A stretch of 16,943 nucleotides of DNA from an uncultured Lachnospiraceae bacterium (GTDB lineage Bacteria > Bacillota > Clostridia > Lachnospirales > Lachnospiraceae): NCBI GenBank assembly GCA_934376945.1, contig CAKRPI010000042.1, forward strand, positions 1 through 16,943. Reading direction: 5' to 3'. This document shows, piece by piece, positions 2,528 through 15,563 of this stretch. How positions within the stretch are numbered: the first letter of the stretch is position 1; each line of letters opens with the position of its first letter. A model generated the notes under the pieces. It made no database searches. It was not told the DNA's origin and saw only the letters and a program-made list of their open reading frames with translations. Made by a program: the position numbers and the translations under genes.

Positions 2528-2530
2528 GTC

Positions 2531-2725
2531 AAAGTGGACATTCGCAAGCTGCTCCGCTATCTAAGTCAAGCAGATATTCGCAATCCGCTTCGCTACTTGC
2601 TCATAACCGAGTAGCTGCTTCGCAGCTTATCAGGAGTGGCTTGTACCACTCCTGATACAAGCAAGTCCACACCCACTGCTTATTGCTCCGCGCAATTGAA
2701 GCAGGGGACTTGCTTGACTCGGTTA
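2531..2725. repeat. Highly structured palindromic element with a near-perfect four-way junction
   Basis: The core spans 2604-2725. P1 is TAACCGAGT/ACTCGGTTA (2604-2612 with 2717-2725), P2 is AGCTGC-TTC-GCAGCT (2613-2627), P3 is an 11-bp stem (2629-2639 with 2646-2656), and P4 is an 11-bp stem CAAGCAAGTCC/GGACTTGCTTG (2658-2668 with 2706-2716) capped by CTGCTT/AAGCAG and ATTGC/GCAAT. Only two nucleotides (2628 and 2657) are unpaired at the junction. The flank 2531-2603 has two related ATTCGCAA-type repeats, and AGTCAAGCA (2564-2572) can pair with 2711-2719, competing with P1 and P4. On the minus strand the core begins 2 nt after the metalloprotease stop codon, as a 3' UTR. Not a named family to my knowledge. 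Confidence 0.75.
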
Positions 2726-2727
2726 AA

Positions 2728-3687
2728 TTATTTTCCCCATGCGGCGCTGTATACGCTGAGGATTCTGTTAACCTGTGCATCTGTGACACAAGCTAATGCC
2801 CGCTGAATTGCTGCATAGGTCTGTGGTCTGGATGCTTTCAGTGCAGCCGGATTCTCGGTATAGTTACGGAAAGACTCTGCAAAGTATTCGGAACTGTTCT
2901 GAAGCACATAATTCTTATTGAATGCAGTGTATTTTGATTTCTCATTCTGGAAAATCTGCTGGAATGCGGAAGAAGTATCCACATTTCCTGCAACGAATGC
3001 CAGAAAATGTCCAAGCTCATGGTAAGCCGTTGCGTCTGCCTGCTTCAGGGTGATCGTACGCGTTCTTGCATCACACAATCCGGAATACGGAACGGAAGAC
3101 TTGATCACTACCTGGAAGCCGAGCTTCTGGAAGGCATTGAGCACTCTCTTATCTGCTGCCGGTGCAATCTGTGTCACTGCAACCGTGCCATCCTTTACAG
3201 TCGTACCAGGTTTTGCCGTGGTCGTCTTTTTAGCGATTGGTGTAACCGTCTTTGTCGTGGTCGTCTTTACTGTTGTGACCTGGGTATTGATCTTGGAACC
3301 CTTTTTATAATTATTTGTGATGGTAGTCTGTGTTACAACCTCAGTCGTTGTCGTTGCTGTAGCAGATTTTGTCTTTATAGTCTTCTTCTTTGTGGTCGTC
3401 TTGCCCTTTTTCACATACGTTTTCTTGGATGCTGTTTTCAAAGAAATCTTCTTTGTGGATTTGCTCGTTTTGGTGGATTTTATCACCTTTGACTCTCCAA
3501 GCGGTGTCGCATCTTCCTCAATCTGTACCACCTCGTCATCATCTATATAGGTGGTCAGCTCCGGAATCGGATTCTGCTGATTGTAGATATAAGTTCCTCC
3601 TCCAAAAACAAGAGCTGTTGCCAGCGCCAACGCACCGGCCTTTTTCGTGATCTGCCGAAGCATCTCTTTCATTTTCTGATTTTTCAT
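2728..3687 (-). CDS. Secreted zinc metalloprotease, ATLF/Pro-Pro endopeptidase-like (HELGH)
   Basis: A 319-residue exported protein. Residues 1-36 are a basic N-terminus plus one hydrophobic segment (signal peptide or membrane anchor). Residues 65-165 are a Lys/Thr-rich low-complexity linker, perhaps spanning or binding the cell wall. The C-terminal 145 residues hold the gluzincin site: HELGH at 223-227 (two zinc His and the catalytic Glu) and SSEYFAESF at 265-273 giving the third ligand (E267 or E271). This spacing and the FAE motif fit the anthrax lethal factor-like/PPEP group; the substrate is inferred, not seen. The start is supported by GGGAGG 9 nt upstream. The leader carries a c-di-GMP-I riboswitch and a terminator, matching the known c-di-GMP control of the PPEP-1 gene of Clostridioides difficile. 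An ordinary peptidase of the same fold is the alternative. Confidence 0.8.
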   Translation of the reverse strand: MKNQKMKEMLRQITKKAGALALATALVFGGGTYIYNQQNPIPELTTYIDDDEVVQIEEDATPLGESKVIKSTKTSKSTKKISLKTASKKTYVKKGKTTTKKKTIKTKSATATTTTEVVTQTTITNNYKKGSKINTQVTTVKTTTTKTVTPIAKKTTTAKPGTTVKDGTVAVTQIAPAADKRVLNAFQKLGFQVVIKSSVPYSGLCDARTRTITLKQADATAYHELGHFLAFVAGNVDTSSAFQQIFQNEKSKYTAFNKNYVLQNSSEYFAESFRNYTENPAALKASRPQTYAAIQRALACVTDAQVNRILSVYSAAWGK

Positions 3688-3772: not shown

Positions 3773-3890
3773 CACCACTTACACACTCCTCTGATGAAAA
3801 TTCTTCCCTTCTTTATCCGGCTTCATTCATTGAAAGAAGCCCTCAGGAAATACACCAGCCTCACAAGTTCACGCCTGTGATGGAGAATGC

Positions 3891-3970
3891 GGCAACCGGC
3901 TGTCATAGCTTCCGGATACGGAAGCCTTAGACCCTTTGGCTTTGCGTCTCTGCTTTTCAACAGATTTGCC
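3891..3970 (-). promoter_or_regulatory. Cyclic di-GMP-I riboswitch aptamer (GEMM-I)
   Basis: Read on the minus strand, the region has the GEMM-I hallmarks in order: GGCAAAT, a short hairpin with a GAAA-type loop, GACGCAAAGCC, GGGTCTAAGG, the P3 hairpin CTTCCGTATCCGGAAG, then ATGACAGCCGGTTGCC. The 5' GGCAA and 3' TTGCC pair to close it. GEMM-I RNAs bind c-di-GMP and control motility, adhesion and secreted proteins (known). Here it is cis to the secreted metalloprotease, with about 110 nt between aptamer and terminator. Confidence 0.93.
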
Positions 3971-4002
3971 TTTATATCAGATTTTATTTTATTTATACTA
4001 TA

Positions 4003-12130: not shown

Positions 12131-13657
12131 TCACCTATACCAGAATGTTAAAATCTTACCACCTGACGTAAACATTCCGCCCTGTCCATTTGAATAAGTT
12201 AAATTCCAAGATGCATTTCCATAATTATAGTTGTAAGTATATTTCAATATAGAAGAATTTCGATTGGTAAAATTCACCGCATCTCGTGTATATTTAAGTA
12301 CATTATTTCCTTTTGTCAAGCCTTCTCTCACTACATGTTTATTATAATGATATTTCATTGATTGATACCCTGATTCAAATGTACCTTTATCCCATGTTCT
12401 TGCAGCTTGTGAGATTTTTGATACACTACTAGCACCTCCTGTTATTACACCGGTAATGGCACCTGATAATGCCCCATCTCCCATTCCATTAAGGGCAGCC
12501 GTACCTGCACCAGTCCAACTACCCGTGGACATTCTATGGCTCACCGCCGCTGTAGTTGCACCTATAGCAGCTCCAGAAGCTATTCCGATTGAAGCTCCTT
12601 TTAGTGCTCCTACTGCTACTACTGCTGCCGCTGTACCTGTACCAGCCGTTGCAACAGTTACTGCTGCTACTGCCACAACCACCACTACAACGCCAACAGC
12701 TGCAGCTGCTTTTTTAGCCCAGTTAGGCAAAGACCAATCCCCATTGGTATCACAACGATTAATAGGATCATTCATACAATATATAGTGAGATTATATTGC
12801 ATAAGATTTTCTAATTCTTCATCTAATACATTTACATCATCCGCACTGATAAATCTCCTGATCTCCGGGTCATAATACCTGCTCTGCAGATAATACATCC
12901 CGCTCTCGGCATCGAAGTAGTACCCTCTGTATCGGAACGGGTTCTTCTGTCCTACGGTCGCTGCCAGTGTGCCGGTTATGCTGACGACTTTGCCCCAGCT
13001 GTCATACTTATAAGATACCACCCGCTTTCCTGTGCTGTCAATCAGCCCGATGATGTCATTCTGGGCATTTCTGATGTAATTATAACGCTCCGTTCCAATC
13101 ATCAGTGCTACCAGGTTTGCTGCGCTGTCGTACTGGTACCAGAGCGTTGTACCATCGGTGCGCTCTGAGATAAGCAGGCTGCCTGCCATGCGGTATCCCG
13201 TTGTCACACCATTCACGGTCTTCTTCACGCGTGCCCCGGTATGGTCGTAGTAGTAACGGATGCTCTTTCCATTGCTTCCGTTACTGATTGCGGAGAGCTT
13301 CCTGCCCTGGGTCCATAGGATGTTCCTTGCATCCTTTACGCTGTCCAGGAGGTCCTTTCCTGTATCCCAGTCATAGGTGACCTGGCAGCCGCGTGCATCC
13401 TTTACCGTCCTCACATGGTTCTGGTCCTCCGTCATCGTCCGCGTCAGCCAGGTGCCGGCCGTCTCATCACCCGCCGATACCGCCGCGCTTTTCACCACAT
13501 TTCCCTTATCATCATACTGGTAGTACAGGGCGCGCTTTTCCGCCGAGGTTCCCTTTATCACGTTATGGTGGTTATCATATTCATACTTAAACGAACTCCC
13601 CTTCGCGTCCGTCACGCCGGTAAGGTCAAAAAATCCCAGAGCACTCCCGTTTTTCAA
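12131..13657 (-). CDS. Truncated Rhs protein with intact C-terminal toxin
   Basis: Only the end of an Rhs (YD-repeat) toxin, 508 residues from a TTG at 13657. Residues 1-110 are YD repeats. At about R111 the sequence jumps from LLDSVKDAR to ILWTQGRKL, which in full Rhs proteins are separated by many repeats, so the barrel middle seems deleted. Residues 112-305 are the conserved core end (RYRGYYFDAESGMYYLQSRY, then RRFISADD, YCMNDPINRCDTNGD). Residues 314-412 are Ala/Val/Gly-rich, probably membrane-active. Residues 415-508 are the toxin, with YQSMKYHYNKHVVREG and KYTRDAVNFTN resembling BECR-fold RNase toxins (tentative). The frame is open back to a TGA about 10 nt inside the amidase tail, with no signal peptide. 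Composition turns AT-rich from about 12,840, the usual toxin boundary. Confidence 0.85.
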   Translation of the reverse strand: MKNGSALGFFDLTGVTDAKGSSFKYEYDNHHNVIKGTSAEKRALYYQYDDKGNVVKSAAVSAGDETAGTWLTRTMTEDQNHVRTVKDARGCQVTYDWDTGKDLLDSVKDARNILWTQGRKLSAISNGSNGKSIRYYYDHTGARVKKTVNGVTTGYRMAGSLLISERTDGTTLWYQYDSAANLVALMIGTERYNYIRNAQNDIIGLIDSTGKRVVSYKYDSWGKVVSITGTLAATVGQKNPFRYRGYYFDAESGMYYLQSRYYDPEIRRFISADDVNVLDEELENLMQYNLTIYCMNDPINRCDTNGDWSLPNWAKKAAAAVGVVVVVVAVAAVTVATAGTGTAAAVVAVGALKGASIGIASGAAIGATTAAVSHRMSTGSWTGAGTAALNGMGDGALSGAITGVITGGASSVSKISQAARTWDKGTFESGYQSMKYHYNKHVVREGLTKGNNVLKYTRDAVNFTNRNSSILKYTYNYNYGNASWNLTYSNGQGGMFTSGGKILTFWYR

Positions 13658-15395: not shown

Positions 15396-15563
15396 GACAA
15401 ATGAGTCTCCATCGATTTTTCCGTGCCTCTGGCACTCTCAAAATCGATGAAATCATTCAAAATCCGTTCATTTTTCTACGAAAAATGGCTACTTTTTCAT
15501 AATTTAACGGGATCCATAGACATAAAATCGGATACAAGCGTCCATTTGTCCCTTGACTCATTT
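15396..15563. repeat. Branched palindromic element flanked by AAATGAGTC inverted repeats
   Basis: Ends AAATGAGTC (15399-15407) and GACTCATTT (15555-15563), with a second nested pair GACAAATG/CATTTGTC (15396-15403 and 15543-15550). Inside are CATCGATTTT/AAAATCGATG (15410-15419 with 15440-15449) capped by GTGCC-TCT-GGCAC, and CATTTTT/AAAAATG (15469-15475 with 15481-15487) within CCGTT/AACGG. No coding potential. It fills most of the gap 15311-15579, between the toxin fragment and the immunity candidate. Confidence 0.6.

Follow-up and report, generated by a model that had tools for sequence, protein, structure and literature searches.

A structured repeat beside a zinc protease gene of an uncultured Lachnospiraceae bacterium, best supported as a copy of a dispersed mobile element

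The stretch between positions 2531 and 2725 of the window (the whole piece of DNA that was analysed, 16,943 nucleotides from an uncultured Lachnospiraceae bacterium) is best supported as a copy of a dispersed mobile element and not as a 3' UTR device of the neighbouring protease gene. It is placed between a DUF624 gene (plus strand, 1727-2479), with a hairpin at 2484-2527, and a zinc protease gene on the minus strand. A letter-level check of 2531-2725 found all arms of a four-way junction on the minus strand, and comparison with relatives showed this junction to be real and kept by compensatory change. The element has been active recently in at least one genome. The features of the window are as follows.

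15402-15560, minus strand: bona fide Clostridiales-1 RNA (RF01699, 76.4 bits)
3888-3980, minus strand: c-di-GMP-I riboswitch, upstream of the protease gene (RF01051, 82.2 bits)
2728-3687, minus strand: zinc protease with ATLF / Pro-Pro endopeptidase domain (PF07737, E 4.3e-11; Pro-Pro endopeptidase / Zmp1 structures, best E 1.2e-4)
2722-2727, minus strand: TTTAAC at the left flank, the proposed target of insertion; from 2725 inward it forms part of P1 (TTTAAC in 19 of the 20 copies of genome G019, TTTAAT in one)
2565-2722, minus strand: complete mobile unit (match of covariance model R1 at 2561-2729, minus strand, 195.1 bits; boundaries via G019 copies, tandem junctions and empty sites)
2604-2612/2717-2725, minus strand: P1, 9 bp (pairing of letters and covariation)
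2717-2725, minus strand: 5' strand of P1, TAACCGAGT (pairing and covariation)
2604-2612, minus strand: 3' strand of P1, ACTCGGTTA, containing GGTTA, the proposed target guide (pairing and covariation; co-change of left end and guide among subfamilies)
2658-2716, minus strand: P4, arm with an 11-bp stem (2658-2668/2706-2716) and an inner hairpin (pairing and covariation)
2628-2657, minus strand: P3, hairpin of 12 bp, stem 2628-2639/2646-2657 (pairing and covariation)
2613-2627, minus strand: P2, hairpin of 6 bp with loop GAA, stem 2613-2618/2622-2627 (pairing and covariation)
2573-2604, minus strand: conserved core ATGAGCAAGTAGCGAAGCGGATTGCGAAT, Clostridiales-1-like (within a sub-threshold RF01699 match)
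2568-2590, minus strand: P5, hairpin near the right end with a 7-nt loop, stem 2583-2590/2568-2575 (90.2% of cells paired on alignment A2, double changes in two of eight pairs)
2528-2564, minus strand: probably a second copy in tandem, truncated on its 5' side, with ...CTTTGAC as its end beside the terminator (direct repeat D1; ending like right ends elsewhere)
2484-2527, no strand assigned: terminator-like hairpin, perfect 20 bp, usable from both sides (inverted repeat I1)

The original prediction had proposed stems of 9, 6, 11 and 11 bp meeting with two unpaired nucleotides. All arms were recovered, and P3 proved to be 12 bp long instead of 11, hence none is left unpaired. The start two nucleotides past the protease stop was exact (P1 ends at 2725, the minus-strand stop codon occupies 2730-2728). 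The compactness was indeed beyond chance: against dinucleotide shuffles, the 195-nt stretch folded with z scores of -8.28 (plus strand) and -7.40 (minus strand), and none of 200 shuffles was as good on either strand. The right end of the window unit reads ...CTTGAC at 2565; the tandem junctions and empty sites seen in relatives served as the model for placing its left boundary (2722 or 2723). The adjoining segment 2528-2564 is, judging from direct repeat D1 (2532-2559/2568-2595, 79% within the window), a probable 5'-truncated second copy in tandem with the first; model R1 gave no separate match for it. Elsewhere in the window, inspection by eye uncovered inverted arms GTTCAGAGCC / GGCTCTGAAC in the ileS-DUF624 intergenic region (1398-1510), which could be another dispersed palindromic repeat, and what resembles the C-terminal part of an RHS-repeat protein with small ORFs behind it (12131-13657, minus strand).

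The architecture was preserved in relatives. The window is similar to Coprococcus catus, the protein fragment of its ileS displaying 87% identity to the best of 80 listed loci, and the stretch used as BLAST query found matches in 18 of 145 C. catus relatives (E <= 1e-3). Ten copies were aligned; 90.1% of their cells were paired and 22 of the 57 pairs displayed double changes, values as high being absent from 500 shuffles. With a ten-copy covariance model, family members were detected in 42 of the 295 relatives (E <= 1e-4), some of them fragmentary genomes, and ten genomes contained at least nine matches each. On 84 matches aligned to the model (alignment A2, 74 distinct rows), 93.6% of pair cells were paired; this alignment was fitted to the model and thereby biased toward the structure, slid controls nevertheless dropping to 38-46% paired. 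Double-change cells numbered 538, against 158 in shuffles, and affected 40 of the 57 pairs (7/9 in P1, 5/6 in P2, 7/12 in P3, 19/22 in P4 with its inner hairpin and 2/8 in P5), so that the covarying stems for which a covariance-model search had been proposed were found. An RF01699-type helix within the core, considered in place of P5, was 89.7% paired on alignment A1 with no double changes.

The mismatches bear on the molecule that folds. In the minus-strand reading, G-T/T-G cells numbered 208 against 354 expected from column composition, and A-C/C-A cells 53 against 226, the latter being the stronger depletion; with each genome and pair counted once, the numbers were 112 and 46. Since a double-strand cruciform under selection should favour neither kind of mismatch, the depletion of A-C points to a single folded strand of minus sense. 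A double-strand cruciform is thus probably not what is selected, as far as counts that depend on a model-fitted alignment can tell. Three options had been put forward beforehand, namely a 3' UTR RNA, a trans-acting sRNA and a cruciform mobile unit; the mobile unit has the best support, from near-identical dispersed copies and empty sites, and a double-strand cruciform nature is disfavoured.

A competing pairing of 2564-2572 with 2711-2719 had also been described. The letters are complementary over 9 bp as claimed, but this pairing was unconserved in ten sequences (59.3% of cells paired, no double changes), and the relatives gave no support to two competing folds. The letters involved belong to the conserved TCAAG of P4 and to the CTTGAC of the right end. 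A riboswitch-like protease mRNA tail switching between two states through this pairing has the complementary letters in its favour; with that lack of conservation and the protease itself unmatched among relatives, it is barely credible.

The protease carries a HELGH motif and a Thr/Lys-rich linker, and its N terminus looks like that of a secreted protein. A Pro-Pro endopeptidase under a c-di-GMP-I riboswitch is the arrangement of Clostridioides difficile PPEP-1. No match to the protease was obtained in 295 relatives (E <= 1e-8) nor in an earlier contig scan, these searches having been run without a positive control, and the genes neighbouring element copies were of many different kinds. The suggested functional tie to the c-di-GMP-controlled protease therefore looks incidental, and a protease-linked function was set aside as unsupported.

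Mobility was apparent in genome G019, where twenty copies of one 166-bp unit (TTTAACC...TTTGACT) were found amid unrelated flanks. Sixteen of the 20 were full-length, two lacked one base, one was four bases short and one was cut by a contig end; identity was 95.8-100% among the 19 uncut copies and 93% for the cut one. Twelve more pieces were located at contig ends of this genome, of which eight were checked and four start at base 1. BLAST matches to the element amounted to 45 in G216 and 43 in G308, some representing fragments of one copy.

Empty orthologous sites were sought for seven copies of G216 (L198 and L200 clean, L196 and L202 approximate, L197 deleted, L199 and L201 one-sided) and five of G308 (L442, L447 and L448 aligned, L441 deleted in orthologues, L446 without orthologue). 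Occupied L200, AAAGAGTGTGAA-C[...]CTACC, corresponded to AAAGAGAGTAAA-CTACC in the empty orthologue, and occupied L198, AAGAAAATGAAC[...]TCGTATT, to AAGAAAGGGGA-TCGTATT. Among copies of the TTTAAC type, to which the window copy belongs, L448 (AGTTTAAC[...]CAAAAATA) was matched by AGTGTAAC-AAAAAC in G316 and by TTTTAT in G216 (L467). The empty orthologues of L442 read TATAAGC in G316 and TATAGC in G216 (L471), and those of L447 read TTCTTAAAAAT in both genomes. TAA was present at the empty site in at least one orthologue for all three G308 copies of this type and absent from the second orthologue for two of the three. The TAA of the left flank probably predates insertion, by these alignments, a case for a pre-existing target that is weakened by the second orthologues without TAA. 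Empty sites of the TGAA type deviated from TGAA (GTAAA, GGGGA, TAGAA, TTTGA), and here the flanking bases probably predate insertion in part at most. Both the insertion target and any duplication were assessed by visual inspection, which showed no target-site duplication at the 20 G019 copies or at the empty sites L198/L295 and L200/L299. At tandem junctions (L407, L420, L450, L459), TTTAC was directly followed by CGCAG or similar, which suggests that the unit starts just behind its target and that a target can also be provided by the right end of the unit itself.

Left end and guide changed together among subfamilies, in the pairs TTTAACC/GGTTA, TTTGAAC/GTTCA, TTTAACA/TGTTA and TGTGAAT/ATTCA; mismatched guides were seen in genomes G028 and G168 and in a small number of single copies. 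Shorter forms of the element were encountered in G216, G308 and G316, the recurring parts being guide, core, P5 and right end. A mini form composed of P1, P2, core and P5, without P3 and P4, occurred at 13 of the 40 partial-match loci that were fetched (L406-L415, L418, L419, L443), and internal deletions at short direct repeats were seen in L426, L428 and L430. Hence P3 and P4 are seemingly dispensable for spread in that lineage. Many of the copies read displayed GTAG a few bases 5' of P5, with GCAG or GGAG in L419, L443 and L445. The core was also observed joined to quite different hairpins in L123 (G021) and twice in tandem in L131 (G041), as might be expected of a recognition module in shared use.

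The orientation of copies followed GC skew. Measured over 20 kb, the sense strand coincided with the G-rich strand in 22 of 22 stronger copies and in 28 of 29 when weak matches were included; 22 of the 29 were tabulated, and of the seven weak ones left out six agreed and one, L330 (18909-18963, 36.1 bits), opposed the bias. By 3-kb flanks, 68 of 75 copies agreed, for which a P value of 1.2e-13 is a guide only, related copies being non-independent. A second 20-kb set, built around all seven 3-kb exceptions, agreed in 17 of 22 and left five exceptions standing (22 of 23 matches used, the omitted one being a second view of one copy). Counts of flanks, context and strand comprised 75 of the 84 A2 matches. 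The nine dropped were second loci of copies already represented (L145, L147, L149, L151-L154, L158, L159); L203 and L204 have identical flanks. The G-rich strand would be the lagging-strand template, replication direction having been deduced from GC skew and not from mapped origins, and the skew being weak in G060.

Genes were called on both sides of 71 of the 75 copies by a simple longest-ORF rule. The element lay in sense between tandem genes in 32 cases and in antisense in six, and the upstream gene was co-directional in 53 of 71 (in convergent or divergent pairs independently of element orientation). In nine of the 75 copies, two of which share flanks, the upstream reading frame had the TAA within the TTTAA of the element as its stop codon (distance -6). 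Both the sense excess and the stop-codon overlap are expected if the lagging-strand template is where a TTTAA target is read, since most genes are co-oriented with the fork. Few copies separate replication from transcription as cause of the orientation, and transcription as its direct cause is possible. Six copies had both neighbours in antisense; the 20-kb skew was positive in L329, L343 and L341 and otherwise in L336, L337 and the minus-strand copy of L339. Third-position skew was negative for antisense genes at L346 and L351 and slightly negative for sense genes at the G060 loci.

The excess of sense copies between tandem genes, the co-directional upstream genes and the RNA-type covariation would also suit an RNA element useful to the host, residing in mRNA tails or between cistrons, serving processing, stability or termination, and spread by selection or passive copying. 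Such an element is improbable in view of the orientation that tracks GC skew, and of near-identical copies at unrelated sites, empty orthologous sites and differing neighbours.

Endonuclease-less group II introns such as RmInt1 likewise insert into the lagging-strand template, according to an excerpt of PMC8914252. By analogy with them, a bacterial SINE-like route may be conceived, in which the RNA would enter the single-stranded lagging-strand template at a base-paired target, a reverse transcriptase would copy it in trans and nascent lagging strands would prime. Besides this shared preference, such a route is favoured by the strong covariation with many G-U pairs and by copies in which the 3' end is intact and 5' parts are gone (L366, L368, L420-L424, L440). 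Pieces consisting of the 5' part only occur too (L365, L369, L370, L427, L429, L431), however, and 5' truncation as proof of target-primed reverse transcription was thus dismissed as indecisive. Tandem units and left junctions are equally compatible with single-strand DNA transposition. No group II ribozyme domains were detected, the Rfam gathering scan of the window giving only RF01051 and RF01699; unlike group II introns, the element displayed no intron domains, is far too short and encodes no protein, its 158-nt unit being too short for a reverse transcriptase. The route as such is unlikely. Its fuller version is slightly less likely still: a gene-less SINE-like retroelement of ~75-166 nt whose junction would be completed by host DNA, whose guide would pair a TTTAA or TGAA-like lagging-strand target, which a reverse transcriptase would copy in trans from the 3' end and to which Clostridiales-1 RNAs would be related via the recognition core.

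The element shares several traits with IS200/IS605 and derivatives as an excerpt of PMC6006769 presents them: no visible target duplication, orientation by the lagging-strand template, a hairpin near the right end, a proposed short left-flank target that an internal guide could read and similar final right-end bases. According to the same excerpt, IS608 and ISDra2 have hairpins near their ends and move as single-strand DNA on the lagging-strand template, guides reading both the left-flank target tetranucleotide and the final right-end tetranucleotide. The co-change of left end and guide resembles this logic and favours mobilisation in trans by a Y1/HUH transposase. In contrast to IS200/IS605, the element has a much larger, covarying four-way junction at its left end, its guide follows the hairpins instead of lying just 5' of a hairpin foot, its target is not strictly fixed, and neither a transposase gene nor an autonomous partner was seen. 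With the REP sequences of TnpA-REP (RAYT) it shares high-copy intergenic hairpins and, in many copies, the GTAG 5' of P5. REPs are, however, 21-65 nt long (excerpt of PMC6006769), whereas the element is ~75-166 nt, contains the junction and has GCAG or GGAG in some copies. The bcr1 repeat of the Bacillus cereus group is also a dispersed structured intergenic repeat and of similar size (167 bp, excerpt of PMC2267715). Among the papers listed by one literature search for dispersed structured repeats in Lachnospiraceae, none concerned this family, and the main text of PMC3733652 contains no words starting with Clostridi, Firmicutes, Coprococcus, Lachnospiraceae or lagging.

Clostridiales-1 RNA (RF01699) shares with the element the core UGAGCA...GCGGAUUGCGAAU and its multi-copy occurrence in related bacteria. 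Of 79 relatives, 28 contained it at E <= 0.001, 22 of them above the cut-off, with up to 30 matches per genome, which qualifies it as a dispersed repeat itself; its copies were adjacent to one another in G040, G030 and G049. Its authors marked it as probably RNA and probably not cis-regulatory (excerpt of PMC2864571). Full membership of the element in this family is very unlikely. The minus-strand match (2677-2533) spans the whole model, the core motif is alike and a true copy is found elsewhere in the window, but the score (24.5 bits) is half of the gathering threshold of 48, arms and ends differ, and the 18 loci containing copies of the element or of its core gave no above-gathering match. 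Moreover, RF01699 displayed no strand bias (11 versus 9 in the 20 of 30 fetched loci with a listed strand). The two cores may be homologous.

Taken with these comparisons, a short non-autonomous element that moves as a single strand via the lagging-strand template, with a Y1/HUH enzyme acting in trans, is the reading to which we incline, at slightly better than even confidence. In single-stranded form, the element would enter DNA laid open at the replication fork; there the guide (GGTTA or GTTCA), which makes up the 3' side of P1, would pair with a TTTAA or TGAA-like target. Host DNA and element would thereby be linked at the outer end of P1, the remaining recognition signals would reside in core and P5, and the right end (...TTGAC / TTTAC) would be cut and joined. 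A TTTAA target on the sense strand of most genes would account for the siting right behind co-directional stop codons. The likeliest enzyme, and the least certain step, would be a trans-acting Y1/HUH transposase of IS200/IS605 or TnpA-REP type.

Of 12 element-bearing genomes, 11 yielded Y1 transposase matches (PF01797), the exception being G168; in G216 these amounted to just two broken Y1 pieces despite its many element matches. No autonomous copy or partner was found, the partial hits of G019 being contig ends. The element core (E <= 1e-3) occurred in three of 30 fetched Y1 loci, just upstream of Y1 in two. In these, L489 (G175:C6) and L505 (G316:C65), a core copy preceded a co-directional Y1 gene at short distance. 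By eye, ends common to element and Y1 units were not evident at either locus; the sequence common to the two Y1 units starts ~70 and 170 nt past the core copy and is unlike the element end.

What appeared to be a 3' UTR RNA of a protease gene thus turns out to be a widespread mobile element of relatives of this gut bacterium. The direction of replication seems to be readable from its orientation, and a short internal guide may determine which target it takes, according to a target-guide rule that is testable. Given the similar core and the multiple copies of Clostridiales-1 RNA, part of the structured RNA catalogued in gut bacteria may be mobile DNA.
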